This document shows positions 24,087 to 48,916 of a DNA stretch of 64,000 nt, in pieces. A model generated the notes under the pieces. That model saw nothing but the letters and a program-made list of their open reading frames with translations. It did no database searches and had not been told where the DNA came from. The stretch's first letter is position 1. The number at the start of each line of letters is the position of its first letter. This DNA comes from Euzebya pacifica (GTDB lineage Bacteria > Actinomycetota > Nitriliruptoria > Euzebyales > Euzebyaceae), in assembly GCF_003344865.1 (NCBI RefSeq), contig NZ_CP031166.1:310001-374000 (forward strand). The letters are read 5' to 3'. The translations under genes were made by a program, and so were the position numbers.

Positions 24087-24124
24087 GTGTCGTCTCGACT
24101 CTCTCCGTCGGTTGTTTCGCTGTG

Positions 24125-24152: not shown

Positions 24153-24156
24153 GGCC

Positions 24157-24193: not shown

Positions 24194-24204
24194 GGACGTA
24201 CGGC

Positions 24205-26301: not shown

Positions 26302-26343
26302 CCGCGTGGCCGACCTGCTCGAGGTCCTCGCGGAATCGTGGGG

Positions 26344-27405
26344 TCAGTTCAGGAAGGTCTCGTAGGCAGCGTCGGCGTAGGCGGCGGCCATCACGATGTG
26401 GGTGTGCGCGGACTTGAGCCGTTCGACCTTGTCGGTGTCGGTCAGTCCGGAGGCACCGGCGAGGGACTTCTGGGCGTCCCCGAGGTGCCCGAGGGCTGCG
26501 TCGGCGCACTTGGAGGGTCCGAGATCGCTCATGGCCTGGTAGTCGAACTCGGGATCGTCGACGTGATCGGCGTCCATGGCAGCAAGGGCGTTGGCCACGT
26601 GCTGCTGTGCAACGTTGAGCACGCCAACGGTGGCCTTGACCCTTGGTGCGGAGCTGAATGCGTGCATCCGCGATCGTGCGTCGCGGATTGCCGCTGAGGC
26701 GGCCTTGCGAGAAGCCCTGACTCCCGGCACGGCGGCGTATTCCTCGTCGCTCAGGCCCTTGGTGATCGTGTCCTTGGCGGTGCTGAACAGCTTCACGGCC
26801 GCATGGGCGCGGCCGTGGGCCGTGGCGAGCCGTGCGGACCGCTCGTCGGCGGTCACGCTCATCAGGTCGGTTGCCGACTCGATGCCCTTGACCGCTTTTG
26901 TCATCTGTCGGAGGCCTTCGACGTAGGCGTCCTTGCCGGTCAGTCCTTCCGGGATCTCGGGGTCGTCGGTGGGGCCGACATACCCGCCGGTGTCGGTGGC
27001 GCGGAGGTCGGAGATGGTGGCGGCCAGTTCCGCCGCGGCGGCGTCGCCGCGGGTGGCGTGGCCCTTGAGCTGCCAGACAGCAAGGCCCTTGGTGTGCCAC
27101 ATCGGGGCCAGGGCCACTCGGGCCCCGGTGTAGGCGCGGTCCTTGGTGGTGCGAAACGCCGCCGGTACCTCCACCGTGCCTGTGCTGGCCGGTGTGTGGG
27201 TGGTGTCGGCCATTGGTTGCGGCGTGTGGAACGGGTCACTGACGGCGGCGTGCTGCGCCGTCTTGTGCGTTGCGATCGAGGCCTTCAGCGCTGCCATCAG
27301 ATCCGGTGCGGTGTGGGTGGCACCACAGGGTCCGCCGGGGGTGGCGACGGTGTTCTTGCAGTGACCGCCGGTCGCGGTCGGCTTTCCGCACAGGTAGCCG
27401 GCCAT
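26344..27405 (-). CDS. Cys/His-module protein, 353 aa
   Basis: ATG 27405 overlaps the upstream stop by one base (TGATG). Residues 6-31 carry the module C-x9-C-x10-C-x3-H (CGKPTATGGHC, then PCGATH), followed by an Ala/His/Thr linker and VSDPF near residue 57. The remaining 290 residues are helical and Ala-rich, in several long helices, with no recognised domain. The neighbouring 27405-28487 gene product has the same layout (helical body ending in a similar DADAMRLRQAYDHTRHAI-like helix versus KVERLKSAHTHIVMAA), so the two are probably paralogues from tandem duplication. Confidence 0.72.
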   Translation of the reverse strand: MAGYLCGKPTATGGHCKNTVATPGGPCGATHTAPDLMAALKASIATHKTAQHAAVSDPFHTPQPMADTTHTPASTGTVEVPAAFRTTKDRAYTGARVALAPMWHTKGLAVWQLKGHATRGDAAAAELAATISDLRATDTGGYVGPTDDPEIPEGLTGKDAYVEGLRQMTKAVKGIESATDLMSVTADERSARLATAHGRAHAAVKLFSTAKDTITKGLSDEEYAAVPGVRASRKAASAAIRDARSRMHAFSSAPRVKATVGVLNVAQQHVANALAAMDADHVDDPEFDYQAMSDLGPSKCADAALGHLGDAQKSLAGASGLTDTDKVERLKSAHTHIVMAAAYADAAYETFLN

Positions 27406-28487
27406 CAGGCGGTCACCTCGTTGTGGTCGGGGTGGTCGACGTAGGTGTCGAGCACGTTGATCGCGTGGCGGGTGTGGTCGTAGGCCTGCCGCAACCGCAT
27501 GGCATCGGCTTCGGCGTAGGCGGCCGTGCCGTCGTGGATCGTGCCGTCCGGGTTGGTGCCATCAGCGGCGTTCAGCTGCATGGTCAGCAGCTCGCTGATG
27601 GCCTTGGAGTGCTCCTTGTAGTCGGTGAGCAGTTGCGGCGGGTCGCCGGTGGGCACCACGAGGGGCTCTTCACCACCGACGGGTTCGCCGTAGCCGGCGA
27701 GGGCGTTGACGAGGTGGGTGCGGACCTGCCGGAGCCGTTCGGATGCGGCGGCGGCGTTGTGCCGTCCGCCAATCCGTCCGTTCTCCGTCCAGGCGGTCTT
27801 GACGGCCTTGGCGGCCTGTGCCCGGTGCACGTCGGGTGCCTGCGGGTCGAGGTTGTGGCCGGCGATGGCGACTGCCTCGGTGTCCTGCGCGGCGAAGTCG
27901 TAGAGCTTGTGGGCGGCCAGGGCGTAGGACTGGGCGGAGGACAGCAGGTCGGCCCGTTCTGCCGGGTCGGTCTGGTCCTTGGCGCGGCCGGCCTTGCGCA
28001 TGGCCCGCTGCATGTAGGTGGCGGCGGTGTCGCCCATCTGCCGGGCCGACATCGTCTCGGCCATCTCGGTGACGGGGAGGACTGGGGCGGGGTTGTCATT
28101 GGGGGCCACCGGGTCCTCCTTGCGCCACATCTCGATGGTCTTGTGGGCTTCTGCGGCGATGAACTTGCCGCGCGTGTTGCGGTCGGCGAACTGGGGGGCG
28201 GTCATCCCCTTGGAGGATCGGCCAAGCGCGGCGGCGCGGGCCGCGAGAACGCGGAGGTTCCCCATGCGGACGGCGACGTTGTGGGCGGCCTGGGTGGCGG
28301 CGGGGTCGTGGAAGGGGTCCGCGGCCGCAGCTGCGGCGGCATCGTTGCCGGCGGCCCACGCCTTGAGGCCGGCACCGAGGCCGCCCACAGCGTTGTGGGA
28401 GGCCCCGCAGGGCGCACCGGGGGTGGCCGTGGTGTTCTGGCAGGGGCCGCCACCGAGGGTCGGCTTGCCGCATGGGTAGGACATCAT
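27405..28487 (-). CDS. Cys/His-module protein, 360 aa
   Basis: Start ATG 28487 overlaps the previous stop (ATGA); ATG 28484 is an alternative. Residues 6-31: CGKPTLGGGPC, then PCGASH, the same C-x9-C-x10-C-x3-H spacing as its neighbour; then an Ala-rich linker with AADPF near residue 56. The body is helical (ARAAALGRSS, YMQRAMRKAGRAKDQTDPAE). It is likely a tandem paralogue of the 353-aa protein. Possible roles are scaffold, packaging or storage protein; nothing in the sequence decides. Confidence 0.72.
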   Translation of the reverse strand: MMSYPCGKPTLGGGPCQNTTATPGAPCGASHNAVGGLGAGLKAWAAGNDAAAAAAADPFHDPAATQAAHNVAVRMGNLRVLAARAAALGRSSKGMTAPQFADRNTRGKFIAAEAHKTIEMWRKEDPVAPNDNPAPVLPVTEMAETMSARQMGDTAATYMQRAMRKAGRAKDQTDPAERADLLSSAQSYALAAHKLYDFAAQDTEAVAIAGHNLDPQAPDVHRAQAAKAVKTAWTENGRIGGRHNAAAASERLRQVRTHLVNALAGYGEPVGGEEPLVVPTGDPPQLLTDYKEHSKAISELLTMQLNAADGTNPDGTIHDGTAAYAEADAMRLRQAYDHTRHAINVLDTYVDHPDHNEVTA

Positions 28488-35477: not shown

Positions 35478-35552
35478 GACCGAATAGCCAAGCGGCCAAG
35501 GCACGGGACTGCAACTCCCGCATCGACGGTTCGAGTCCGTCTTCGGTCTCCA
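35478..35552 (+). tRNA. tRNA-Cys (GCA)
   Basis: Acceptor GACCGAA/TTCGGTC, anticodon loop CTGCAAC, T loop TTCGAGT, encoded CCA. First tRNA of the array. Confidence 0.95.
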
Positions 35553-35952
35553 CCACCAACCACCCAACCCGGCCACCAAAGGAGGTGCCCGCCACGAAAC
35601 CCGAACAACCCGAGCAGCCGGCCACACCCGGCACACGACCCCGACGGGCATCACGAACCCCACGGGCCGCGCTCCCACCCAGCCATCACGGTGGACACCA
35701 GACGATGGCACCCACATAGCGCTCGCCGCCCAGAGGACGATCCTGCAGGTCCCATGCACGCAGCCTCTTACCGAGACCAGACGAGACGCGCTCCACAGCC
35801 ACCCACTCGACCAGCCCGTGAACCCCGACCAGACGGGGCGTGCTGGGAACCGTGTGACCCCCCCACCCCCGGCGACGGACGGTGCGGGTGCGGACCGCCC
35901 GCGATCGTCCCGGCCGCCACACACACAACCACCACCCAACCAGCCCACCCAT
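35553..35952. other. 400-bp spacer in the tRNA array
   Basis: A GTG ORF of 45 codons (about 35586-35720) overlaps a GGAGG and is too weak to call. No tRNA fold found; a CTCTTA stretch near 35766 is not in an anticodon position. Confidence 0.4.
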
Positions 35953-36029
35953 GGGTCGCGAGTCCGTGTGGACGGACGCCGGTCTCCAAAACCGGAACGA
36001 ACGAGGTTCGACTCCTCGGCGACCTGCCA
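35953..36029 (+). tRNA. tRNA-Trp (CCA)
   Basis: Acceptor GGGTCGC/GCGACCT (G-U at 1:72), anticodon stem CCGGT/ACCGG with loop CTCCAAA, T loop TTCGACT, encoded CCA. Confidence 0.93.
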
Positions 36030-36134
36030 AGCCCCGCGAACCCCCACCGCAGCCACGACCGTGACCGGTGGGCGGACGGCGGGCACAACCAACCGGGACG
36101 CGCAGCCGCACCATGCCGGCAGCCACGCCCACAC

Positions 36135-36208
36135 GGGGCTCTAGCTCATCGTGGCAGAGCACGTCCCTGGCAGGGACGAGGTGCGGGGTTCAAGCCCCCG
36201 GAGCTCCA
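36135..36208 (+). tRNA. tRNA-Ala (GGC)
   Basis: Acceptor GGGGCTC/GAGCTCC including the G3-U70 pair that identifies alanine tRNA; anticodon loop CTGGCAG; T loop TTCAAGC. No encoded CCA. Confidence 0.94.
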
Positions 36209-36410
36209 CTGGCCGCCCATCGGTACGGCACCGTCCCGCGTCACCTCACGAAGGTGTGACGGACGGCACGTTCACAGGCGTCGTTGCTGGAAAGCCGATG
36301 GTGCAACCCCCGCCGTCCCACAGGGCGCGGCGCTCGCGAACCGGACCAGCCGGTGCGAGACGGCGAGGGGCCATAGACCTCGTGTCGCACCCATCGGGCA
36401 TCATCGCTTC

Positions 36411-36500
36411 ACGTTCCCCGCGCAGGCGGGGGTGATCCGTTCCATGCCTTTCACCACCGATTCAGTCGGTGCCTCTCCCCGCGCAGGCGGGGGTCATGCC
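36411..36500. CRISPR. two-repeat type I-E-like CRISPR unit with one spacer
   Basis: Two 29-nt repeats (36411-36439 and 36472-36500) share the 19-base core TCCCCGCGCAGGCGGGGGT, a hairpin typical of type I-E repeats in actinobacteria, exactly 61 bp apart. The single 32-nt spacer is 36440-36471. Ends differ (GATCCG in the first, CATGCC in the second), as in a degenerate terminal repeat. No cas gene is in the window. Chance hairpins remain possible, but the exact 61-bp period argues against this. Confidence 0.6.
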
Positions 36501-36598
36501 TTCAAGGACCCGCATGTTCCTGCACCCGAGCGGTCATCCGCGACGCAGGTGGAGCGGGCCCCGGCGCCGATGGATGCGGCTGGGGGCGGAAGGCTCAT

Positions 36599-36675
36599 TG
36601 GTCGCTAGCTCAGCAGGTCAGAGCGCACCCCTGATAAGGGTGAGGTCCGAGGTTCAAGTCCTCGGCGACCAACCA
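36599..36675 (+). tRNA. tRNA-Ile (GAT)
   Basis: Acceptor TGGTCGC/GCGACCA, anticodon loop CTGATAA, T loop TTCAAGT, encoded CCA. Confidence 0.95.
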
Positions 36676-36748
36676 CACGCCCCCGCCGCAGCAGCAGCCC
36701 AGCGTTCCCAACCCCGGCTCAGGCCCACGACCCGCGAGAGGAGTCGTC

Positions 36749-37219
36749 ATGCCTGCCATCATCTTCGACGTGGACGGCACCACGACCGACGTCCGTCCCT
36801 ACCGGCACCACGTCACCGGACCCACCCGGAACTTCCACGAGTTCCACATGGCGAGCACAGACGCCGCCCCGGTGCCGATGACCAAGGTGCTGTGGGACGC
36901 CTACGGGACGGCCGGCTGGGACCGTCTCATCGTTACCGCACGGTCGGTCGACTACCGGCACATCACGGTCTGGTGGCACCTGCTCAACGGCTTCGACGGC
37001 GATGCCGGCCTGTGGATGCGTCGGGCCGGCGACCACCGTCGCGACGCGGCCGTCAAGACCGACATTCTTACCGCGATTCGTGCCGCCGGGTTCGACCCGC
37101 GCATCGCCGTCGACGACAACCCGTCGGTCCTGCCGGTCTGGAAGGCCCACGGCCTGGCCGTGATCGTCTCCCCGACCTGGCACGACCCCGACGCCGTCAC
37201 CGCCGCACTCGCCGACTGA
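36749..37219 (+). CDS. HAD phosphatase resembling the polynucleotide kinase 3'-phosphatase domain
   Basis: 156 aa; ATG 36749 behind GAGGAG. HAD motif 1 IFDVDGTTTD, motif 2 LIVTAR, then the PNKP-like GLWMRRAGDHRRDAAVKTDI and motif 4 IAVDDNPSVLPVWKAHGL. T4 Pnk has the same order (DVDGT, SGR, a basic R-x-x-G-D-x-R-x-D segment, DD). Such enzymes remove 3'-phosphates from broken RNA ends. Sitting inside a tRNA array, it may take part in tRNA repair, but neither a kinase nor an RNA ligase is seen nearby. Confidence 0.78.
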   Translation: MPAIIFDVDGTTTDVRPYRHHVTGPTRNFHEFHMASTDAAPVPMTKVLWDAYGTAGWDRLIVTARSVDYRHITVWWHLLNGFDGDAGLWMRRAGDHRRDAAVKTDILTAIRAAGFDPRIAVDDNPSVLPVWKAHGLAVIVSPTWHDPDAVTAALAD

Positions 37220-37300
37220 CCGCCTGCAAGGTGGACGGTCGGCGCAGTCGGAGGACCACGGCGTCCCATCCACACGACTCATCGCCGAGGAGGTGACCCG

Positions 37301-37447
37301 ATGCAGAGACGCGGCCTCACCGCCCGGCACGTGTTCGTGTTGGACGACGACGCCTACGACGCCGTCGTTGCCCTCTTGGACTGGCCCGCCGAACCGTCCC
37401 CGCGTCTGGCCGACCTCCTCACCCGGCCATCGGTGTTCAGCACCTGA
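37301..37447 (+). CDS. 48-aa TacA/DUF1778-like antitoxin peptide
   Basis: ATG 37301 with GAGGAGG. The sequence FVLDDDAYDAVVALLDWPAE and then PRLADLLTRPSVF matches the C-terminal toxin-binding segment of DUF1778/TacA antitoxins (F-x-L-D/S-D-x-A, P-x-P-x-x-L-x-x-L), while the ribbon-helix-helix DNA-binding half is missing. TacA binds TacT, an acetyltransferase that blocks aminoacyl-tRNAs. No partner toxin adjoins, so it could act as a free-standing neutraliser. Confidence 0.6.
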   Translation: MQRRGLTARHVFVLDDDAYDAVVALLDWPAEPSPRLADLLTRPSVFST

Positions 37448-37455
37448 CCAGACCT

Positions 37456-37541
37456 GCGCGAGTGGTGGAACCAGGAAGACACGCCGGATTCAAGTCCCGG
37501 TACCGCAAGGTGTGAGGGTTCGATTCCCTCCTCGCGCACCA
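37456..37541 (+). tRNA. tRNA-Leu (CAA)
   Basis: Acceptor GCGCGAG/CTCGCGC, anticodon arm CCGGA-TTCAAGT-CCCGG with an A31-C39 mismatch, long variable arm, encoded CCA. Confidence 0.9.
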
Positions 37542-37548
37542 AGACCAT

Positions 37549-37633
37549 GCTCGAATGGCGGAAGCAGGTAGACGCGCGCGGTTCAGGACCGCGTGGCCGC
37601 AAGGTCGTGGGGGTTCGACTCCCTCTTCGAGCA
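37549..37633 (+). tRNA. tRNA-Leu (CAG)
   Basis: Acceptor GCTCGAA/TTCGAGC, anticodon loop TTCAGGA, long variable arm, T loop TTCGACT. No CCA encoded. Confidence 0.93.
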
Positions 37634-37641
37634 CGACGCCA

Positions 37642-37664
37642 GCCCCGGCGACACAGGGGCACCC
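37642..37664 (+). repeat. 23-bp direct repeat, copy 1
   Basis: Identical to 37762-37784, 120 bp downstream. Contains a GCCCC/GGGGC hairpin. Copy 1 precedes the odd tRNA-like element, copy 2 precedes tRNA-Ala(TGC): a sign of tandem duplication of a tRNA unit. Confidence 0.85.
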
Positions 37665-37666
37665 TC

Positions 37667-37733
37667 GGGGCCACTCAGTGGCAGAGCGCGGTCACCCCAG
37701 ACGGCGCGGCCGGTTCGACTCCGGATGGCTCCA
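37667..37733 (+). tRNA. tRNA-like element with enlarged anticodon loop (CACCCCAG)
   Basis: Acceptor GGGGCCA/TGGCTCC with a G3-U70 pair, a T loop TTCGACT, but a short D arm (CTC/GAG) and an anticodon stem GCGGT/ACGGC with one mismatch closing an 8-base loop with CCCC. Only 67 nt. It is either a decayed duplicate of the neighbouring tRNA-Ala or a +1 frameshift-reading tRNA. Confidence 0.4.
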
Positions 37734-37761
37734 CTCAGACAGTCCGCAAGGACTGCCGTCC

Positions 37762-37784
37762 GCCCCGGCGACACAGGGGCACCC
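37762..37784 (+). repeat. 23-bp direct repeat, copy 2
   Basis: Identical to 37642-37664; 6 bp before tRNA-Ala(TGC). Confidence 0.85.
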
Positions 37785-37790
37785 AATCTT

Positions 37791-37863
37791 GGGGCTGTAG
37801 CTCAGTTGGTAGAGCACCTGCCTTGCATGCAGGGGGTCCGGAGTTCGATTCTCCGCTGCTCCA
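37791..37863 (+). tRNA. tRNA-Ala (TGC)
   Basis: Acceptor GGGGCTG/CTGCTCC with G3-U70 and one U6-U67 mismatch, anticodon loop CTTGCAT, T loop TTCGATT. No CCA beyond the discriminator. Confidence 0.93.
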
Positions 37864-37944
37864 CAAGTCCGATTCTCGATCCGAAAGTCCGACCCGTCCT
37901 TCCCGCAGCAGCCCCTCAGCGGCGCTCAGGTGGCGGGTCCAGAT

Positions 37945-38022
37945 GTGGCCGTAGCTCAATCCTGGTAGAGCGCCGCGTTGTGGTCGCGGTGGTTGCGGGT
38001 TCAAGTCCCGTCGGTCACCCCA
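37945..38022 (+). tRNA. tRNA-His (GTG)
   Basis: Acceptor GTGGCCG/CGGTCAC, C73 as usual for His, anticodon loop TTGTGGT, encoded CCA. The -1 base is T, so G-1 would have to be added after transcription. Confidence 0.93.
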
Positions 38023-38222
38023 TTGCTGCGTCATCCCATGGCACCGGTGCCCGCGGGCCGATCGCCCAGGTGATGGACGACGCCGCCGGCCTCGTCGAGA
38101 TCGTGGAGGAACTCGTCCAAGGTCCTGAACTACAAGGGGGTGCTGAGGCACCCGTGGCCGCCCGCCCCGCCGCCGGATCTTCCCGTCCGACGCGGGGCCG
38201 GGCGTGCCCGACCACCAGACCT

Positions 38223-38297
38223 TGCGCGGTGGAGCAATGGCAGCTCGCCGGCCTCATGAGCCGGAGGCAGCAGGATCAAAACCTGCCCGCGCAACCA
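38223..38297 (+). tRNA. tRNA-Met (CAT), probably initiator
   Basis: Acceptor TGCGCGG/CCGCGCA with a weak U1-A72 pair, anticodon loop CTCATGA, T loop ATCAAAA resembling actinobacterial initiator tRNAs, encoded CCA. Confidence 0.88.
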
Positions 38298-38414
38298 GCA
38301 GGCCTCTGGGACGTCATGTCGGGATGACCGGCCATGCACCGGTCAACCGTGTGGCGCAGGCCCTACCCGGCGCCGATCCGGGCAGATCGTGACGCTGCCA
38401 CGAGGGCAGCACAT

Positions 38415-38489
38415 GCGTCCTTAGCTCAGCAGGATCAGAGCGCGGCTCTCCGGAGGCCGAGGCCGGCGGTTCGAGTCCGCCAGGGCGCA
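38415..38489 (+). tRNA. tRNA-Arg (CCG)
   Basis: Acceptor GCGTCCT/AGGGCGC, anticodon stem CGGCT/GGCCG with loop CTCCGGA, T stem GGCGG/CCGCC. No complete CCA. Confidence 0.92.
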
Positions 38490-38648
38490 CCGCGGGGTGA
38501 CCGGGGTTCCCGTCCGGTCGCCACCGGGACCCGGAGGAACCCCAAGTACGCGTCGCGGAACGGCCCACGGTCCCGGTGTGCCCACCGGGGTCAGGTGGTC
38601 CGCACCCCACTCCCCCCCATCAGCACGACCCGGAAGGAGGAAGGCACC

Positions 38649-39089
38649 GTGGACATACGGTCCAAGGCGGGGTTCCCCGCCGGTTCGCTGTCGAACTTCG
38701 CACCGCACCCGTTCGTCCTCGACGGAGTCGAGTGCGCCTCCATGGAGGGCTTCCTGCAGTCGTTGAAGTTCGCCGCGCCCGACATGCAGGCGCAGGTCTG
38801 CACCCTCGTTGGTGCCAAGGCCAAGAAGCGTGGGGCGAAGAAGAACTGGCAGCAGACCCAGACGCTGCACTGGCGCGGTGAAGCGATCGACCGGCACAGC
38901 GACGCCTACCAGGCGCTGTTGGACCGTGCCTTCGAGGCCCTCGCCGGCAACGCCGGGTTCCGCCGGGCGCTGGCGGCGACCGGCACGGCGACGCTGACCC
39001 ACACGATGGGTCGTCGCAAGCCGTCGGAGACGATCCTGACCAGGCAGGAGTTCACCTCCCGTCTGCACCGTCTCCGCGGCACCCTCTGA
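38649..39089 (+). CDS. NADAR-domain protein (YbiA-like)
   Basis: 146 aa from GTG 38649 behind GGAAGGAGG. The NADAR core is clear: SLSNFAPHPFVLDGVECASM, then EGFLQSLKF, AKKRGAKKNW, LHWRGEAIDRHSDAYQALLDRAF and a C-terminal HTMGRRKPSETIL. NADAR proteins are N-glycosidases acting on ADP-ribose-related compounds, including removal of ADP-ribose from DNA bases modified by DarT toxins. In a mobile element this could be a counter-defence enzyme; it also fits the NAD theme of the window. Confidence 0.85.
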   Translation: MDIRSKAGFPAGSLSNFAPHPFVLDGVECASMEGFLQSLKFAAPDMQAQVCTLVGAKAKKRGAKKNWQQTQTLHWRGEAIDRHSDAYQALLDRAFEALAGNAGFRRALAATGTATLTHTMGRRKPSETILTRQEFTSRLHRLRGTL

Positions 39090-39125
39090 CCCGGCCGTAC
39101 TCCGGTTCGGCCGGGTCACCCCAAT

Positions 39126-39200
39126 GGCTCTTTGGCGTAACCGGAAACGCGCCGGAGTGAAGTCCCGGAGTTCGCCGTTCGATCCGGCGGGGAGCCACCA
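39126..39200 (+). tRNA. tRNA-Phe (GAA)
   Basis: Acceptor GGCTCTT/GGGAGCC with G-U pairs, anticodon arm CCGGA-GTGAAGT-CCCGG with an A31-C39 mismatch as in tRNA-Leu(CAA), encoded CCA. Confidence 0.88.
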
Positions 39201-39213
39201 GCAACACACCCAT

Positions 39214-39285
39214 GGGGGTGTGGTGAAACGAGAATCATGCCGGCCTTCCAAGCCGGAGGTGCCGGGGCAGTTCCGGTCATCCCCT
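39214..39285 (+). tRNA. tRNA-Gly (TCC), copy 1, unusual T loop
   Basis: Acceptor GGGGGTG/CATCCCC, anticodon stem CCGGC/GCCGG around CTTCCAA. The T stem GCCGG/CCGGT closes loop GGCAGTT, which lacks the TTC core. Possibly impaired. Confidence 0.7.
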
Positions 39286-39318
39286 CTCTGCCAGGCCGGA
39301 GCACATCCGGCCAACTCT

Positions 39319-39396
39319 GCCCCGGTAGCTCAGTTCGGATTAGAGCACCGGTCTACGAAACCGGGATATGCGTTGGTTCGAATCCAACTCGGGGCG
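39319..39396 (+). tRNA. tRNA-Arg (ACG)
   Basis: Acceptor GCCCCGG/TCGGGGC, anticodon loop CTACGAA, T loop TTCGAAT. No CCA. Confidence 0.94.
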
Positions 39397-39436
39397 CCCG
39401 AAGACGGCTTGGTGTGTGCCGTGAACACACCCTTTC

Positions 39437-39512
39437 CGGGATGTAGCGCAGTCTGGTCCAGCGCGCCTCGTTTGGGACGAGGAGATCCGGGGTTCGAATC
39501 CCTGCATCCCGA
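39437..39512 (+). tRNA. tRNA-Pro (TGG)
   Basis: Acceptor CGGGATG/CATCCCG, anticodon stem CCTCG/CGAGG around TTTGGGA, T loop TTCGAAT. Confidence 0.95.
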
Positions 39513-39513
39513 C

Positions 39514-39587
39514 AGGAAGGAGTGGCCCCAGGTGGGGTGGTGCGCTGGCGGCGCACCAGTCGGGAGTCGAGTCCCGGACGGTTCCTT
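39514..39587 (+). pseudogene. degenerate tRNA-like sequence
   Basis: AGGAA/TTCCT ends, a strong hairpin GTGCG-CTGGCGG-CGCAC in anticodon position, and a T-arm-like CGGG-AGTCGAGT-CCCG. Acceptor and D arm do not fold well. Probably a decayed tRNA between Pro and Asp. Confidence 0.4.
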
Positions 39588-39623
39588 GTTCGGCCCGGCG
39601 GGAGCCGTGATCCCGCCACACAT

Positions 39624-39700
39624 GCCCTCGTGGGGGAGTCTGGCCGTCCCCGCCCGGTTGTCAGCCGGGAGACTCGCGAGTTCGAATCTCGTCGAGGGCG
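39624..39700 (+). tRNA. tRNA-Asp (GTC)
   Basis: Acceptor GCCCTCG/CGAGGGC, G73, anticodon stem CCCGG/CCGGG around TTGTCAG, T loop TTCGAAT. Confidence 0.93.
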
Positions 39701-39824
39701 CATCGCGGTCACCGGCCATGCCCGCCGGGACGCCCGCCTCCGTTTGCCGATGGGCAACGGCCCGAAGGGGCGGGGGCAACGTTGTCCGGTGGGTCGGTAG
39801 TACCCGTCGGGTTCATCCCCCTCT

Positions 39825-39897
39825 GCTCGTGTAGCTCAGTTGGTAGAGCGCCGCCATGGTAAGGCGGAGGCCGACGGTTCGATCCCGTCCGCGAGCT
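39825..39897 (+). tRNA. tRNA-Thr (GGT)
   Basis: Acceptor GCTCGTG/CGCGAGC, anticodon stem CCGCC/GGCGG around ATGGTAA, T loop TTCGATC. Confidence 0.95.
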
Positions 39898-39900
39898 CGT

Positions 39901-40110
39901 CTAGGCCCGGCCGTCGTACCGGTGGCCGTCACGCGGTTCGCCGTCACGATGATGGGTGTGTGACCACCATGCGGCGTTGCCAGTGATGATCCGCCCGCAG
40001 CTGCACCGGTAGCGGATGCTGCGTTGCCCTTGCGAGTGGGCGACCTGCCGTTCGTATGACGTGTGGTTGTGTCCCATACCAATGTGGAGACATGGGAGGG
40101 TCTGGATCAC
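39901..40110 (-). CDS. small Cys/His protein, possible zinc finger
   Basis: 69 aa from GTG 40110, overlapping the upstream stop as GTGA (ATG 40077 would give 58 aa). The core YRCSCGRIITGN is followed by SHTHHRDG: two Cys and several His at zinc-finger spacing (C-x-C ... H-x-H-H). Basic overall. Probably a small nucleic-acid-binding protein. Its stop lies 4 bp from the end of tRNA-Thr. Confidence 0.6.
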   Translation of the reverse strand: MIQTLPCLHIGMGHNHTSYERQVAHSQGQRSIRYRCSCGRIITGNAAWWSHTHHRDGEPRDGHRYDGRA

Positions 40111-40547
40111 ACAGCCGGACCGAAGATTGTCGGATGGGCGGCGAGGAACGGTCGTTGCAGACGGTCAACCACGGCTCCTTCTTCGGCCTTGAACGCCCAC
40201 CGGCGGTCCGCAGTGCCGGCCAGTTGTGTGCCGCACCGGCCGTGCAGCTGCAGCGTCACGGACCCGATCGCACCCGAAAGCGTTCCGGTGGCGACGACGA
40301 ACCGCAGATCGGTCTGCACCACGACCGGCCATGGGACCGTTGTTGATGCCGGGTCGACGATCAGGTCGTGGCTGGTGGCAAGTTCCGGGGCCGAGTGCAC
40401 CAACGCGACCTCGGTCCATGCCTGCGCGGCCCGACCGGCGACCAGCACGACTCTGGGGGTTGGGTCGGCAGCAACGATGTGAAGTTGGCCTGTGTGGAAT
40501 CGTGTTCCATCACCACTGCGAAGGAACGCTGCCGTCCAGACTGTCAA
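40107..40547 (-). CDS. hypothetical protein, 146 aa
   Basis: Minus-strand ORF with high third-position GC, coupled to the small Cys/His protein by a GTGA overlap. Beta-rich (QLHIVAADPTPRVVLVAG, VTLQLHGRCGTQLAG). No signal peptide or known domain. Confidence 0.6.
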   Translation of the reverse strand: MTVWTAAFLRSGDGTRFHTGQLHIVAADPTPRVVLVAGRAAQAWTEVALVHSAPELATSHDLIVDPASTTVPWPVVVQTDLRFVVATGTLSGAIGSVTLQLHGRCGTQLAGTADRRWAFKAEEGAVVDRLQRPFLAAHPTIFGPAV

Positions 40548-40626
40548 CGCCAGTCAGTACCGGATCGTAGACACACCCTCGGGCCGGTGTGGCGATCTCT
40601 CCGTCGTCATTGTGGCCGGGCGTGGG

Positions 40627-41733
40627 TCAGAAGCCGTCGTCTGCGCTAACGAGATAGGTGCTGCACTCAGCTACCAAGTAGGAACCGGGCGCGTGTTCAT
40701 TGACGTCGATCGTGAATGCCGCCGCGGGCTGGCCGTCGACCGTGATCGGATCGGAGAAGCCGTCACCGACACCGGACGGCCGTCCGTCAGGGCCGACGCA
40801 CCACAGCGCTGCCTCGCCGTCGCGCCCTGGTTCGGGCATGAGGGCGGAGCCGACGACGACGCCGTCGTTCAGGTTGTGTTCCAAGACCTCAGCGGCACGC
40901 TGGGAGTCGCAAGCCGCACCGCCGGGGGTGAGGGTCCACTCCGGAAACCAGCCGTCGGGGAAGTCCTGCCAGTCATCTTGACCGAGGTTGAAGATCGCGT
41001 AGGCGCCGGTGGCGATGGTGGCCGGAATGGGGTAAGCGAACCGGCCGCCTTCGCTTGCCAACAGAGTTCCATCGGCGTCACGTGCGATGACGCTGACCTC
41101 GACACCGCACTGGACGCTGTCGGTGTTGTTGTGAATGAGCGCGGTTATACGTCCAGTGGGAGTGGAATCCCAGACGACCTCGAGGGTGCCGGGCTCAGCG
41201 AGCGGGACTTGGTCGATGGTGCCGGCGAGCCCGACGGGCGCACCCATTCCGAACGGCGCCTCCACCGCGAGTGACGGTGCCGGCGTTGGAGTTGCTCTCG
41301 GCGTTGGAGTTGCTCTCGGCAGTGAAGTCGGTGTCGGCAGTGAAGTCGGACTGGGCGTCGGCGTCGGCGTGCTGTCCATCGCGACCTCCAGCACAACGGT
41401 CACGGACGGCGCAACCGTTGACCCAGCCGGCGGGTTCTGGGTCAACACCGTTCCGGACGGCGTTCCCTCCACCTCCTGTACAGCGCTGCTCAGCCCAACT
41501 CGTCCCAGTGCACGCCCAGCCGCGGCCTCGGCCATGCCAACTACGTCGGGCACCTCCACAGTCGCCTGCTCCTCGACGACGGCACCACCAACAGTGGCCT
41601 CCTCAGACGGACCGGTGGCCTGGCCCAATGGTGAATCGCCAGCACCCCCACAAGCGGACATCGCCAAGACCAACGCAAGCGTCACGGTACGGAGCAAGCC
41701 CCCGATCACTAGATCCCTATTCAGCACGATCAC
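40627..41733 (-). CDS. PASTA-domain lipoprotein
   Basis: 368 aa. A lipoprotein signal peptide (TLALVLAMSACGG, lipobox A-M-S-A-C), a PASTA domain at about residues 60-118 (VPDVVGMAEAAAGRAL, LTQNPPAGSTV), a Pro/Thr/Ser spacer with TPTP and LPTPT repeats, and a beta-rich C-terminal domain with four Cys. PASTA domains bind peptidoglycan fragments or beta-lactams. A surface protein inserted between tRNA genes, on the strand opposite to them. Confidence 0.82.
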   Translation of the reverse strand: MIVLNRDLVIGGLLRTVTLALVLAMSACGGAGDSPLGQATGPSEEATVGGAVVEEQATVEVPDVVGMAEAAAGRALGRVGLSSAVQEVEGTPSGTVLTQNPPAGSTVAPSVTVVLEVAMDSTPTPTPSPTSLPTPTSLPRATPTPRATPTPAPSLAVEAPFGMGAPVGLAGTIDQVPLAEPGTLEVVWDSTPTGRITALIHNNTDSVQCGVEVSVIARDADGTLLASEGGRFAYPIPATIATGAYAIFNLGQDDWQDFPDGWFPEWTLTPGGAACDSQRAAEVLEHNLNDGVVVGSALMPEPGRDGEAALWCVGPDGRPSGVGDGFSDPITVDGQPAAAFTIDVNEHAPGSYLVAECSTYLVSADDGF

Positions 41734-42329
41734 AGCACCTCGGTGTCCGACTGCCGGACAAGTAGACGAAGGTGCGACGACAACTACGACTGCTGCACAC
41801 CCTTGCCCTGAGGCTACAGGCGTCTCGGCAGTGAAGGGCTGAGGCCGTCAAAGCACCCGGCGCGGCATAGACAGCGTCAGGCGCCCCGAAGGGAGGGGTA
41901 GCGACCCCAGATCCCAAAGTGTCGATCGCTGATGGCACGGCCGGTGGCAACCGCAGGACCCCGTCGATTTCCACACGACGGTTTGAGGACGCCGGAACCC
42001 CTGACCGGATCATAGAGCTGGCCATCGGCCGTCACGGCAACGACGCGTGAACCGCCGACCTTCACCCCACGTCCCCACCGACAGGATCCGTGTATGGAAG
42101 GGCGGCGAGGAGCAGTCGAGCGGCGAGGATGCCAGCCGGTTGGCCGCCGTCGCCAGTGTGTGCTGGATCCCCGCCCGCGACTCGCTTGTACCTACACCGG
42201 CCGGAGCCGAGGGTGCCGGACGACCGATACGGCGACACAGATGTACACCGCCCTACTGCCCGCCAACCTTGACGACCTCCCGGAGGTGATTCGAGCAGCC
42301 GATCGGCGACCGCGAGGAATACCGATGAC
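41734..42329. other. 600-bp region without a convincing gene
   Basis: Small ORFs on both strands have irregular composition and no family resemblance. It may hold the eroded 5' part of the HD gene that starts at 42330. GC content looks lower than in flanking genes. Confidence 0.4.
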
Positions 42330-43103
42330 GTGGACCTACACCGCAGGACCAGCGCCTCTCTCGCCGACTCGACCTCTCACGGCCCCCGAGCACAGTTCGG
42401 AAACCTCTCAAATGGAGTGCTCAGGCCACTCTTGGAGCTGGGTCCGAGTTTCAGAGAAGCCGCAGGTCATAGCGCAGTTCGTCTTCGCATGTCTCACAGC
42501 CGCCCACACTTGGCTGCTCTGTTGCACGACATCGGCAAGCCGGATACCGGACGGTTCGACGGCACGGATGTGACGTTCCGCCACCACGAACAGGTCGGCG
42601 AGCAGATCGTCCGGGACCTGCTGCCTGCGATGGGTTGCACCGATCCGGTTCTGACGGACCGGGTGGCGCGGACCGTGGGACTGTCGGGCCGGTACAAGGC
42701 CGACGGGCCCGGCGCCGCCGAAGTCTGGTCGGACTCTGCGGTGCGCCGGTTCGTCCGCGACTGCGGTGGCCTCGAGGGGCAAGGGTCGGTCCTCGACCTG
42801 GTCCTCGACCTTGCGTTCGCCGACTGCACCAGCCGTCATCCGCACAAGGTGTGGGCCAACGAATCGCAGGTCCAGTCCCTTACCGACCGCATCGGGCTTC
42901 TGGCCGATGGCGACGCCCGCGCGGCCGAACGGGCCGACCTGGACGGGCAGGCCGTCATGGACTTGCTGGGCATCGGTCCGGGACCCCAGGTCGGACGGGC
43001 GCTCGCGGCACTGCTGGCCGCCAAGCGGGCCAACGGTGGGCCACTGCCCGATCCGGAAGCGTGGCTCACTGGATGGTGGGCCGACACCGCCGCTGCGGCC
43101 TGA
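42330..43103 (+). CDS. HD-domain protein resembling the C-terminal half of a CCA-adding enzyme
   Basis: 257 aa. The HD motif LAALLHDIGKPDTGRF is followed by TFRHHEQVGEQIVRDLL, helices, a second Asp (DLAFADCTSRHP), and the end LDGQAVMDLLGIGPGPQVG, which is how many bacterial Cca proteins end. The nucleotidyltransferase head is absent. The start is unsure: GTG 42330 is the longest, ATG 42489 would remove the first His of the HD site. The partner head could be the Cca at 15449, which lacks a recognisable HD domain. Confidence 0.72.
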   Translation: MDLHRRTSASLADSTSHGPRAQFGNLSNGVLRPLLELGPSFREAAGHSAVRLRMSHSRPHLAALLHDIGKPDTGRFDGTDVTFRHHEQVGEQIVRDLLPAMGCTDPVLTDRVARTVGLSGRYKADGPGAAEVWSDSAVRRFVRDCGGLEGQGSVLDLVLDLAFADCTSRHPHKVWANESQVQSLTDRIGLLADGDARAAERADLDGQAVMDLLGIGPGPQVGRALAALLAAKRANGGPLPDPEAWLTGWWADTAAAA

Positions 43104-43227
43104 CCGTCTGCCGGCTGTCGCTCTGCCCTTCGCACGGGCGGGCCGACGGCCGGCAGGGACGGCGACCAGTTGTCGGCACAGCCCAGCGCCGCCGCGTTCG
43201 GGCCGAACGGACCGATCACACACCCAC

Positions 43228-43300
43228 GCCCCGATAGCTCAGAAGGGAGAGCGCCGCGTCGACATCGCGGAGGCCGGTCGTTCGATCCGACCTCGGGGCA
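43228..43300 (+). tRNA. tRNA-Val (GAC)
   Basis: Acceptor GCCCCGA/TCGGGGC, anticodon stem CCGCG/CGCGG around TCGACAT, T loop TTCGATC. Confidence 0.94.
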
Positions 43301-43313
43301 CAAGTTCCACCTT

Positions 43314-43398
43314 GCATCGGTGGCGGAACCAGGCAGACGCGCCGGCTTGAGGGGCCGGTGTCCGCAAGGACGTGGGAGTTCAAGTCTCCCCCGATGCA
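43314..43398 (+). tRNA. tRNA-Leu (GAG)
   Basis: Acceptor GCATCGG/CCGATGC, anticodon loop TTGAGGG, long variable arm (TGTCCGCAAGGACGT), T loop TTCAAGT. Confidence 0.94.
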
Positions 43399-43470
43399 CT
43401 CCGTCCGCCGCCGACAGGCGGCGGCCTCCAACAGCCCTTCGGGGCCGACAGCCACGAGGAGGTGGCCACC

Positions 43471-43695
43471 ATGACCCGCTACCGGATCGTCTGGACCGAC
43501 CCGGCCACCAACACCATGAAGGCAACCCGACCGATCGGACTGTCGCTGGCCTATGAGGTCCTAGCGGTGCTGCTGCGGGACGGCCGTCGCGCCTGGGCGC
43601 TCCGGCTCGGCGCTGATGGCCGGTGGACCCGCATCGGCGCACACACGCCGGCACGGTCCCGACAGGTCACGATCGGCCCGGACGTCCTCGACTAG
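43471..43695 (+). CDS. small hypothetical protein, 74 aa
   Basis: ATG 43471 with GAGGAGG. Starts TRYRIVWTDPATNTMKATRP, then LAYEVLAVLLRDGRRAWALR. Compact alpha/beta composition, unrecognised. Lies between tRNA-Leu and tRNA-Val genes. Confidence 0.65.
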   Translation: MTRYRIVWTDPATNTMKATRPIGLSLAYEVLAVLLRDGRRAWALRLGADGRWTRIGAHTPARSRQVTIGPDVLD

Positions 43696-43847
43696 CGGCC
43701 GCCGGACCGGAGTCGGCTGACCAAGCCTGCGCAGCCGCGTCGGCTTGGGTGACCCCGGTTCGGGCACGAACCCGACGCATCCGCACCGCCAACGTCCTCA
43801 CAGCCATGTCGTCCATCACCACCCGTTGACGGACGACACCCTTTGCC

Positions 43848-43920
43848 GCCCGGATAGCTCAGCAGGGAGAGCGCTCGTCCCACACACGAGAGGCCGCAGG
43901 ATCGACACCTGCTCCGGGCA
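43848..43920 (+). tRNA. tRNA-Val (CAC) with C33
   Basis: Acceptor GCCCGGA/TCCGGGC, anticodon stem CTCGT/ACGAG around CCCACAC, so the invariant U33 is C. T loop ATCGACA has A at position 54. Confidence 0.82.
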
Positions 43921-43924
43921 CCGT

Positions 43925-43998
43925 GCGGTAGTAGCTCAGTTGGAAGAGCGTCGCGTTGCCAACGCGAAGGTTCGTCGGTTCGATCCCGGCCTGCCGCA
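43925..43998 (+). tRNA. tRNA-Gly (GCC)
   Basis: Acceptor GCGGTAG/CTGCCGC, anticodon stem TCGCG/CGCGA around TTGCCAA, T loop TTCGATC. Confidence 0.94.
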
Positions 43999-44039
43999 CT
44001 CCCCGCACGGGCCCCGGCGGACTTCAACGGGACCATCAT

Positions 44040-44115
44040 GCCCCTGTAGCTCAGTCGGTAGAGCGGTGCTCTCGTAAAGCACAGGCCAGCGGTTCGATTC
44101 CGCTCGGGGGCTCCA
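44040..44115 (+). tRNA. tRNA-Thr (CGT)
   Basis: Acceptor GCCCCTG/CGGGGGC, anticodon stem GTGCT/AGCAC around CTCGTAA, encoded CCA. Confidence 0.95.
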
Positions 44116-44129
44116 TCACAACCCCTTTC

Positions 44130-44204
44130 GGGGGCGAGGCTGCTGGTAGCCAGCACGGGATCTGACCCCGTGTCCCGCACGTTCGATTCGTGCCGCCCTC
44201 TCCA
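44130..44204 (+). tRNA. tRNA-Gln (CTG)
   Basis: Acceptor GGGGGCG/CGCCCTC, anticodon stem ACGGG/CCCGT around ATCTGAC, T stem GCACG/CGTGC, encoded CCA. Confidence 0.9.
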
Positions 44205-44238
44205 CGGCTTGCCACGGGCCGCCAAACCGTGGCGTCTC

Positions 44239-44330
44239 GGAGGCGCCCAAGGCTGGCGCGGTACACCGTCTCGAAAACGGCTAGGGGGCCGAAAGCCCCG
44301 TGATGGGTTCGATCCCCTCCGCCTCCGCCA
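44239..44330 (+). tRNA. tRNA-Ser (CGA)
   Basis: Acceptor GGAGGCG/CGCCTCC, anticodon loop CTCGAAA, long variable arm (GGGGGCCGAAAGCCCC), encoded GCCA. Confidence 0.94.
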
Positions 44331-44414
44331 AGCAGCACCACCAGTCGGCGTCCATGACCTTCCGGGTGTGTCCGGACCACCGCTCCGCGCTCGCCTTGGG
44401 GTGCTGGTCCACCC

Positions 44415-44487
44415 GGTCCCATCGTCTAGCGGCCCAGGATCCTTGGTCCTCAACCAAGAGACGGGGGTTCGAATCCCCCTGGGACCA
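44415..44487 (+). tRNA. tRNA-Glu (CTC)
   Basis: Acceptor GGTCCCA/TGGGACC, anticodon stem CTTGG/CCAAG around TCCTCAA, T loop TTCGAAT. Confidence 0.95.
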
Positions 44488-44652
44488 CAGGTCAGTACCG
44501 AACGTTGCGGGGTGGGGCAACGGCCGCCGCCTCGGGCAGCAGGTAGGCGGGGTCCGTCAGGCGGTCGTTCAGGTCGGGCTCCGCGACGGTGCGCGACGTT
44601 GGTCGTCCATCACGTCCTCCGTTCCCTCGATAGTCGAGCCTTCCTGCCGGCC

Positions 44653-44725
44653 GGTCGTGTAGCTCAGCAGGTAGAGCGCACCCCTCATAAGGGTGAGGTC
44701 CCCGGATCGAAGCCGGGCACGACCA
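44653..44725 (+). tRNA. tRNA-Met (CAT), elongator or Ile2
   Basis: Acceptor GGTCGTG/CACGACC, anticodon stem CACCC/GGGTG around CTCATAA, T loop ATCGAAG. CAT could also be lysidine-modified to read AUA. Confidence 0.9.
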
Positions 44726-44788
44726 CGATGACGCGTCCCGTCCGTCCGCTCGGGATGCGTGCCCCGTCGCCCAGGGGTAAGGGCGCAT

Positions 44789-44862
44789 TCCGAGGTGGCC
44801 AATCCGGTAAGGCAGCGCCCTGTTAAGGCGTCCCAATGTGGGTTCGAGTCCCACCCTCGGAG
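44789..44862 (+). tRNA. tRNA-Asn (GTT)
   Basis: Acceptor TCCGAGG/CCTCGGA, anticodon stem GCGCC/GGCGT around CTGTTAA, T loop TTCGAGT. Confidence 0.95.
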
Positions 44863-44877
44863 CTTGGAGTGAAGCAT

Positions 44878-44961
44878 GGGGGTCGCGCGCTCAGGGAAGC
44901 CACTTTCGCTGTAAACGAGAGGTCTCCGACTTGCTGGGTTCGAGTCCCAGGTCCCCCACCA
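44878..44961 (+). tRNA. tRNA-Tyr (GTA)
   Basis: Acceptor GGGGGTC/GTCCCCC with one U-U mismatch, anticodon loop CTGTAAA, long variable arm, T loop TTCGAGT, encoded CCA. Confidence 0.92.
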
Positions 44962-45043
44962 CTCCGTCGCGGCACACGGGCATCCGCCGGTTTGCCGGAT
45001 GAACCCCGGGCGAGAAGCCCGTGCGGAATGACCGCAGCAATCT

Positions 45044-45077
45044 CAACGGTCATCGCGTGTCGGTCGCATGACCGTTG
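45044..45077. repeat. perfect 10-bp inverted repeat
   Basis: CAACGGTCAT / ATGACCGTTG with a 14-base loop, 52 bp before the 100-aa ORF and 80 bp after tRNA-Tyr. No T run; more like an operator or processing hairpin than a terminator. Confidence 0.7.
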
Positions 45078-45129
45078 TCGGCACCCTCATGGACCATACG
45101 GTCACCCACTAGATGACAGGAGTTCTGCG

Positions 45130-45432
45130 ATGACCGATGACTTGGGCACCGTCACCGTTCACGGCCGGGCTGGTGGCAGGGTCGACCTGACCGCCGCCGT
45201 TGGGCCGTTCGCCGCAGGCATGCTGGCCGACCTGTACACCGGCGGCATCGGCGACCCGGACGCGACGGTGTTCGAGGTCGTCCGCCCCGACGTCGAGCCG
45301 GCTGAGGCGATGATGGTTGCCGATGAAACAGGGGCAGGTCGGCAGGACGTCGCTGCCGTCGTCGAGTCGGTCGGACACCTTCCCGGCGGACCCGGCCGTG
45401 TGGAGTTCACCGCTCCTGTCGCCGCCTGCTGA
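45130..45432 (+). CDS. small acidic hypothetical protein, 100 aa
   Basis: ATG 45130 with ACAGGAG. Starts TDDLGTVTVHGRAGGRVDLT; contains GMLADLYTGG and VFEVVRPDVEPAEAM. Acidic, no membrane segment, unrecognised. Between tRNA-Tyr and tRNA-Thr. Confidence 0.65.
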   Translation: MTDDLGTVTVHGRAGGRVDLTAAVGPFAAGMLADLYTGGIGDPDATVFEVVRPDVEPAEAMMVADETGAGRQDVAAVVESVGHLPGGPGRVEFTAPVAAC

Positions 45433-45443
45433 CACGCTCTCTT

Positions 45444-45519
45444 GCCCCTGGGGCCCGGCTGGACGGGCACCGGCGTTGTATCCCGGCCGTTCTCGGTTCA
45501 AGTCCGAGCGGGGGCTCCA
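45444..45519 (+). tRNA. tRNA-Thr (TGT)
   Basis: Acceptor GCCCCTG/CGGGGGC, anticodon arm CCGGC-GTTGTAT-CCCGG with a C31-C39 mismatch, T loop TTCAAGT, encoded CCA. Confidence 0.88.
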
Positions 45520-45571
45520 CGGCACGCCCCGGGTCGGCCGATGGTGCGTGCGGACGACCATCAGTGGGGTG

Positions 45572-45832
45572 ATGGACGCCTCGACCAACGACCTGCCTCC
45601 GCTTCCCGCCGGGGTGTACCGGCACAACGACCCGGCCAAGGTGGGGCCCGGCTCGCGCGGCCATTACCTGCTGATCGTTGAGGCCCGCGATCACGTCACC
45701 GGTGAGGAGAAGGTCGTGTACGTCCCGTTGTATGACCGGGCCGAGTGGGGCGACACCCTGCGCGCCTCCATTCGGACACGTGCGGACTTCGAGTCCTCGT
45801 TCACCCATGTCGGCCGCGGGATCGCACGATGA
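45572..45832 (+). CDS. DUF1653-like protein
   Basis: 86 aa. LPAGVYRHNDPAKVG, HYLLIVEARDHVTGEEKVVY and VPLYDRAEWGDTLRA follow the DUF1653 layout (G-x-Y-R-H, a loop, V-Y-x-x-L-Y). This family has an SH3-like fold; function unknown. Its stop overlaps the next ATG (ATGA). Confidence 0.65.
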   Translation: MDASTNDLPPLPAGVYRHNDPAKVGPGSRGHYLLIVEARDHVTGEEKVVYVPLYDRAEWGDTLRASIRTRADFESSFTHVGRGIAR

Positions 45833-46647
45833 CTGCCCTGTCGGACGCTCTGGAACGCACAGCTGGCACCGACCCCGATATGCGGGTCGTCGCGACCGCC
45901 GGGGCGTTGCGCGACGCAGCGGTCCGCGTGCCCGCCCTCGTCGGCCAGATGCTGCGGGAGGAGGCCGACTGGTACGACTCTCTCGTTGGTGATCCGGCTG
46001 AGGTTGCCCGGTGCGGGATGACGGGATGGGCACACGGCACTGCCCCCGGCATCGTCGGCCACACCCATCCGGTCGCCAAGGCCATCCTGTTGCTCGATGC
46101 CGGACGGGGCGGTAACACCCCCATGGTCACCGATCCGGTCGGGACGGTCCGACGGTGGGAGGTGACTGGTGCGCTGCTTCGGTTCGACCCCTACATCGAA
46201 GGGCTGCACACCCACCATCCTCATCCCTGCCGTGTCGCTGCGGACCGGTTGGCCGGAGCGCTGCCCGAGCTGCCCGACCGCCTCCATGGCGATGCCGGAC
46301 CGATCATCGGCGAACTCCGAAACGCGGCCGTCACGCTACGGGCCGTCCCGCAGCACGCTATCCAGGAGGCGGGCATGGCCCGGACCCGGTCGCAACGACC
46401 GGCCCAGCCGAAGGCCTCCGGTCCGCCGGAGGCCCCGGCCGGGCATCCGACGTCCCCCCGCGCCGGCGCCGATGCGGCCGTCGGGGTGGCTGCGGACGGA
46501 TGCGCCGACCGTCTTGTCAGCCGCCGGGCTGTCCGCCCCTTGGATTCCACCTTCTCCGCCTTGGTGGACGCGCCGATCAGCCTCATGCCGCACGACACGG
46601 CCGCACGGATCGGCCGGCTCGTCACGGCCCTGCTCCAACTCAGGTGA
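45829..46647 (+). CDS. hypothetical protein, 272 aa
   Basis: ATG 45829 overlaps the DUF1653-like stop. The N-terminal 170 residues are mixed alpha/beta (VGHTHPVAKAILLLDAGRGG, LLRFDPYIEGLHTHHPHPC), resembling a metal-binding His cluster; then a Pro/Ala linker and a C-terminal helical part. No family recognised. Confidence 0.7.
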   Translation: MTALSDALERTAGTDPDMRVVATAGALRDAAVRVPALVGQMLREEADWYDSLVGDPAEVARCGMTGWAHGTAPGIVGHTHPVAKAILLLDAGRGGNTPMVTDPVGTVRRWEVTGALLRFDPYIEGLHTHHPHPCRVAADRLAGALPELPDRLHGDAGPIIGELRNAAVTLRAVPQHAIQEAGMARTRSQRPAQPKASGPPEAPAGHPTSPRAGADAAVGVAADGCADRLVSRRAVRPLDSTFSALVDAPISLMPHDTAARIGRLVTALLQLR

Positions 46648-46665
46648 TTCCCGCATCTTCGGCCG

Positions 46666-46712
46666 GCCCTCGTAGCTCAGTGGAAAGAGCAGCGGTTTCC
46701 CTGCGCCGGCCA
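46666..46712 (+). pseudogene. 5' fragment of a tRNA
   Basis: GCCCTCG-TA-GCTC, a D loop, GAGC and an anticodon-arm-like AGCGG-TTTCCCT are present, but the T arm and 3' acceptor are missing; tRNA-Arg(TCT) begins immediately after. Confidence 0.55.
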
Positions 46713-46785
46713 GCCCCCGTGGCCCAATGGATAAGGCAGCGGCCTTCTAAGCCGTTGATTGCAGGTTCGAGTCCTGCCGGGGGCG
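46713..46785 (+). tRNA. tRNA-Arg (TCT)
   Basis: Acceptor GCCCCCG/CGGGGGC, anticodon loop CTTCTAA, T loop TTCGAGT. Confidence 0.94.
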
Positions 46786-46788
46786 CGA

Positions 46789-46806
46789 GGACACCCCGGG
46801 GTGTCC
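46789..46806. repeat. 18-bp perfect palindrome after tRNA-Arg
   Basis: GGACACCCC/GGGGTGTCC. A shorter relative with the same GGACACC/GGTGTCC arms lies at 48901-48916, just before tRNA-Gln. Possibly a 3'-end or processing hairpin. Confidence 0.8.
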
Positions 46807-46825
46807 CTGGTCGACCGTGAACCTC

Positions 46826-47014
46826 ATGACGAGACAGCTTCTTGCCGCGGTCGCCGGTGCCCTGCTGTTGGGCTGCACCCCGCCGCCTCCGGGTCTCGCC
46901 CCTGCCGCTCAGCAGCAGATGGACGCTGTGGAGGAGATCCGCTCCGATGTCGACGCGATCCGGCAGTCCGAGCAGGACCGCATCGACGGGATCACCGACA
47001 GCCTGGGCGGCTGA
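46826..47014 (+). CDS. small lipoprotein
   Basis: 62 aa from ATG 46826 (a GTG at 46817 adds three residues). Signal peptide MTRQLLAAVAGALLLGC with lipobox L-L-G-C, then a Pro-rich turn and a charged helix (VEEIRSDVDAIRQSEQDRI) that could form a coiled coil. It would be anchored on the outer face of the membrane. Spanin-like or small periplasmic-type lipoproteins have similar layouts; no specific match. Confidence 0.65.
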   Translation: MTRQLLAAVAGALLLGCTPPPPGLAPAAQQQMDAVEEIRSDVDAIRQSEQDRIDGITDSLGG

Positions 47015-47016
47015 CC

Positions 47017-47090
47017 TCCCCTGTGGCCCGGTTGGATTGGGCAGCCGCCTTCCACGCGGGCGGTCGCGAGTTCGATTCTCGCCGGGGGCA
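47017..47090 (+). tRNA. tRNA-Gly (TCC), copy 2
   Basis: Acceptor TCCCCTG/CGGGGGC with a mismatch at 1:72, D stem GCCC/GGGC, anticodon loop CTTCCAC, T stem GCGAG/CTCGC. Possibly mispaired at 27:43. Confidence 0.8.
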
Positions 47091-47096
47091 ACCGTG

Positions 47097-47513: not shown

Positions 47514-47655
47514 CAGCCGAAGGGTCGTCCAACAGCGTGTTGACGCACGCCACTTCAACGCCCCAACCCACCCTGAGAATGGTGTGCTGTCATACGTAGC
47601 GGTTCGGGTATTGCCCGAGTCGACCAACTCTGTCGGCCCCTCTCCGGGCCCCCAT

Positions 47656-47729
47656 GGTCCCGTCATCTAGCTGGCCCAGGATACCTGCCTTTCAAGCAGG
47701 CGACGCGGGTTCGAATCCCGTCGGGACTA
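47656..47729 (+). tRNA. tRNA-Glu (TTC)
   Basis: Acceptor GGTCCCG/CGGGACT, anticodon stem CCTGC/GCAGG around CTTTCAA, T loop TTCGAAT. Confidence 0.94.
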
Positions 47730-47780
47730 CCCACAACCACAACGCACAGCCCCCCTGTTTCACCTGCCGAGGAGCGCACG

Positions 47781-48900: not shown

Positions 48901-48916
48901 GGACACCCAGGTGTCC
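48901..48916. repeat. 16-bp palindrome before tRNA-Gln
   Basis: GGACACC-CA-GGTGTCC, related to the palindrome at 46789-46806. Confidence 0.75.

Follow-up and report, generated by a model that had tools for sequence, protein, structure and literature searches.

A type I-E CRISPR unit with a single spacer, set in a tRNA array, is probably a stranded array fragment on its own system's replicon

A pair of CRISPR-like repeats set between two tRNA genes raises the question of whether it is a working guide, a remnant of a larger array or no CRISPR unit at all. The locus lies in a window of 64,000 bp from Euzebya pacifica (C2:310001-374000), C2 being a replicon of 571,580 bp and one of the two contigs of the 6.37-Mb genome. 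There, tRNA-Ala(GGC) and tRNA-Ile(GAT) are separated by 389 bp, part of which the mini-array occupies; it has the orientation common to all of the window's 32 tRNA genes (window coordinates):

36135..36209, + strand: tRNA-Ala(GGC), upstream of the mini-array
36411..36439, + strand: R1, type I-E CRISPR repeat, ACGTTCCCCGCGCAGGCGGGGGTGATCCG, hairpin intact
36440..36471, + strand: spacer, TTCCATGCCTTTCACCACCGATTCAGTCGGTG, 32 nt, without a protospacer match
36455..36471, + strand: inverted repeat CACCGA-TTCAG-TCGGTG within the spacer
36472..36500, + strand: R2, terminal repeat, CCTCTCCCCGCGCAGGCGGGGGTCATGCC, hairpin intact
36599..36675, + strand: tRNA-Ile(GAT), downstream of the mini-array

The sequence-only reading of this locus had described type I-E-like repeats sharing a 19-base core at a distance of 61 bp, a single 32-nt spacer with a small inverted repeat (ACCGA/TCGGT) and a degenerate terminal repeat, and these features are all borne out. 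The core, TCCCCGCGCAGGCGGGGGT, is identical at 36415-36433 and 36476-36494; the spacer fills 36440-36471; the inverted repeat extends to 6 bp (CACCGA at 36455-36460, TCGGTG at 36466-36471); and the outer repeat ends of the mini-array are degenerate relative to the main-array repeat described below, both hairpins being undamaged. The resulting 29/32/29 layout with a period of 61 nt is that of type I-E arrays, which combine 29-nt repeats bearing the I-E hairpin with spacers of about 32 nt and a 61-nt period. The same reading had noted the absence of cas genes, which holds inside the window and fails for the replicon, where a complete I-E system is found 224 kb away (C2 coordinates):

C2:113.2-121.9 kb: complete type I-E operon cas3-cse1-cse2-cas7-cas5-cas6e-cas1-cas2, from profile matches
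C2:121901-122722: main array, 14 repeats of CTTCTCCCCGCGCAGGCGGGGGTGATCCC, 32-nt spacers, 61-nt period, directly after the cas operon
C2 about 113.0-113.15 kb, strand opposite the main locus: decayed three-repeat array flanking the cas locus, sharing a leader motif with the main array
C2 about 126.7-126.83 kb, strand opposite the main locus: decayed three-repeat array flanking the cas locus, without the leader motif

In this operon, cse1 is a partial N-terminal match below the cut-off, and cas1 falls slightly below the cut-off of the I-E model and above that of the general cas1 model. Its Cas3 is the sole one above the family cut-off in the genome, and no other type I-E operon was found. A search of the whole genome for the 19-nt core with up to two mismatches returned 24 occurrences, 22 of them on C2 and all of these in CRISPR repeats, the remainder being two isolated 2-mismatch sites on the chromosome; the reversed pattern, used as a control, gave 0 matches. 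Because the core is otherwise confined to the CRISPR repeats of C2 and the control was empty, the mini-array is not a chance occurrence. The comparison with host CRISPR repeats that had been proposed thus ends at the I-E array of the replicon itself. Given the complete operon and the matching array on the same replicon, the mini-array is an orphan satellite of that system and not a cas-less element in need of foreign Cas proteins.

We consider it likely that this orphan, leaderless one-spacer I-E unit is an array fragment stranded on the replicon of its own system. In period (61 nt) and spacer length (32 nt) it agrees with the main array, and the two satellites listed above, both small and decayed, indicate that such fragments occur on C2. 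R1 matches the main-array repeat at 24 of 29 positions (positions 1-4 and 29 differ) and R2 at 26 of 29 (positions 2, 24 and 27 differ). Between R1 and R2, 6 of the 29 positions differ, all of them outside the 19-nt core (hypergeometric 4.4e-4). Random scatter would be unlikely to spare the core in this way; judged from the repeats, the pattern fits either a captured fragment whose ends derive from local DNA or a unit whose hairpins have been retained. The 5' end of R2, CCTCT, recurs in the 126.8-kb array, and its change at position 24 recurs in the terminal repeat of the 113-kb array, which hints weakly at a kinship of R2 with array ends. Downstream, no decayed third repeat could be discerned, since 6.6% of random sites score as well as the candidate (GCAGG at +62) or better. 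The whole unit has a folding z-score of only -1.5.

Both the main array and its 113-kb satellite have the leader-end motif GCAGGTCAGGAAGT directly next to their first repeat. The motif is absent beside the mini-array, and nothing on C2 corresponds to the 200 bp upstream of this unit; likewise, no copies of its flanks were found elsewhere on this replicon. A separate type I-E mini-array, likewise with one spacer and with the same 24-nt core in its repeats, is present at 4208-4297 of a 38.5-kb viral contig, IMGVR_UViG_3300037706_000069, where it is preceded by the leader end AGGTCAGGAAGT, as on C2, and closed by a degenerate terminal repeat. As even this one-spacer unit keeps the end of the motif, its absence from the C2 mini-array is informative. 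A mini-array lacking a leader should not gain spacers, and we accordingly class it as an orphan leaderless unit and not as an adaptation-competent array.

Some observations count against an origin by fragmentation. The hairpins of the mini-array are intact, whereas the three-repeat satellites near the cas genes carry mutations within some of their hairpins, a difference that could reflect selection rather than decay. Further, neither a donor array nor an empty site came to light for the mini-array, and the capture event itself is unseen. In a search for orthologous sites at which the spacing might vary, the repeat proved absent from the three further species sampled in the genus, and the HAD-phosphatase gene adjoining the mini-array has no match in other members of the genus. 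Elsewhere in the order and class, this gene has only distant matches (31-39% identity), and the 3.4-kb loci examined around these homologs contain no tRNA genes. Among the Streptomyces plasmid matches that were inspected, some are arrays of several repeats and others are single repeats whose flanks differ; none lies near an annotated tRNA gene in a plasmid gene table that omits RNA genes.

The intact hairpins also speak for the alternative that the mini-array is a functional, retained guide, transcribed with the tRNAs and yielding a crRNA that protects the replicon against one unsequenced competitor or phage. Further features in its favor are the near-intact handle, the correct spacer length, the location on the strand of the tRNA array and a cell that also contains the cognate I-E system. 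On the fragment reading too, if the mini-array is transcribed by read-through from the tRNA genes, which share its strand, the replicon's own Cas6e could cut the transcript to one 61-nt crRNA that loads Cascade:

36432..36492, + strand: predicted mature 61-nt crRNA, from the fold and the presence of Cas6e

In this predicted crRNA, an 8-nt handle, GTGATCCG (GUGAUCCG at the 5' end), is followed by the spacer of 32 nt and then by 21 nt that form the 3' part and close with the hairpin, a layout that follows established I-E biology. With the Cas6e hairpins intact and 7 of the 8 bases of the 5' handle preserved, Cas6e could process the unit if it is transcribed. Another actinobacterial megaplasmid with a type I-E system, pMP7017, has a transcribed tRNA array (PMC10832533), which by analogy makes read-through into the mini-array plausible; the CRISPR arrays of pMP7017 themselves are given there as showing no detectable transcription.

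Against a retained guide stand the lack of a leader, the isolation of this unconserved unit and the absence of a protospacer from all collections searched. No promoter or terminator was detected in the region of the mini-array by a scan with the sigma-70 consensus, a weak test in a high-GC actinobacterium. The spacer was used both as an exact pattern and as patterns open at the sixth positions that I-E systems leave unread. Even with 3 mismatches allowed beyond those positions, it matched nothing else in the genome that carries it, so that it is not self-targeting at that level. Exact patterns found nothing in IMG/VR or in 84,980 species genomes (GTDB), and blastn against phages and plasmids, a search the sequence-only reading had suggested, returned nothing above chance level (E about 0.6 or worse). 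Spacers without a protospacer match are common in poorly sampled taxa. With neither a spacer match nor a leader, the earlier proposal that the unit relies on host Cas proteins in trans, be it against competitors or for the regulation of host genes, is left unsupported. We regard a retained guide as unlikely, and somewhat less likely still a natural tRNA-crRNA transcript, in which a unit with neither leader nor promoter would be expressed by read-through and RNase P/Z and Cas6e would free a fixed guide out of a constantly transcribed tRNA array. We consider the mini-array most likely to be a relic that carries no more than a passive and outdated guide.

The single spacer, the missing leader and the presence of cas1-cas2 would also suit a de novo origin, in which Cas1-Cas2 integrated one spacer off target at a repeat-like site of the tRNA array and duplicated that site. 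This, however, predicts that R1 and R2 be alike, whereas they differ at the positions noted above, and each bears features of existing arrays, such as the CCTCT that R2 shares with the 126.8-kb array; such an origin is therefore improbable. Even more so is an RNA anti-CRISPR (Racr), with hairpins that mimic repeats and sequester Cas6e/Cas7 to the benefit of the element. Such repeat mimics, or solitary repeat units (SRUs), are found on mobile elements, and Racrs are known for I-E systems (PMC10651486), which agrees with the extrachromosomal setting. However, such an RNA would act against the CRISPR system that the replicon itself encodes, no promoter is predicted upstream and, unlike the solitary Racr units (PMC10651486), the mini-array has two repeats at the exact 61-nt array period around an insert of spacer length, with the cognate system on the same element. 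The filter used in the search for SRUs removed any candidate whose 100-bp flank contained a partial match of >70% (PMC10651486). A non-CRISPR origin, as a tandem duplication of hairpins or of a tRNA-linked element, is scarcely credible. In its favor, the spacer and the sequence following R2 have the 8-mer CATGCCTT in common, which has a chance probability of about 3%. Against it, that sequence aligns with the spacer no better than chance (p=0.15), and the core is identical to that of 14 bona fide I-E repeats beside cas genes. Such an origin is already contradicted by the match of the mini-array to the main array.

Both orphan arrays and mini-arrays are well documented (PMC9071438, PMC6858448), and the present one is real but fairly ordinary, its only unusual feature being the position inside a tRNA array. 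A survey of plasmids recorded 207 orphan arrays, which are shorter than cas-associated ones (PMC9071438). The mini-array resembles these in being short, extrachromosomal and without adjacent cas genes, and in being a possible relic or a user of Cas in trans; it departs from them in having only one spacer, inside a tRNA array, and its cognate cas genes 224 kb off on the same replicon. Similarly, virus-borne mini-CRISPR arrays have 1-2 spacers, repeats matching a cas-associated array and no adjacent cas genes (PMC6858448). Those of the SPV viruses possess leaders with promoters and spacers that match related viruses, in contrast to the mini-array, with neither leader nor protospacer; phage mini-arrays without leaders are also mentioned in that study. 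A parallel in setting is the Bifidobacterium breve megaplasmid pMP7017, which also combines a tRNA array with type I-E CRISPR-Cas (PMC10832533); it has 20 tRNAs, and the available part of the source does not mention a CRISPR unit among them.

As a relic, the mini-array would be a small, well-placed example of the scattering of CRISPR array fragments within a replicon. If transcribed with the tRNAs, it would represent a leaderless CRISPR unit expressed by hitchhiking on a tRNA operon and, if that is true, a natural counterpart of engineered tRNA-guide arrays.

Within the spacer, the 6-bp inverted repeat is no more than suggestive: 1.3% of shuffled spacers contain one, and none of the 13 main-array spacers does.

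As for the replicon, a literature search on the host genus returned nothing on the 571,580-bp element, and terminase and relaxase families have zero matches in the genome, so these families do not settle whether C2 is a plasmid or phage-like. The tRNA array spans 35478-49104 of the window, its 32 genes covering 19 isotypes on a single strand of the 571.6-kb replicon, and genes for NAD synthesis, an NAD-dependent DNA ligase, RuvB, SbcC-like and CCA-adding-like proteins and a sigma factor lie nearby. Together, the tRNA array and these neighbors constitute a near-complete private translation and repair set of the replicon. Finally, several hypothetical proteins encoded at 14223-28487 of the window and in the C2 cas region start with a short Cys/His motif (CGxxTxxGxxCxN...CGxH), which seems to represent an N-terminal domain that recurs on the replicon.
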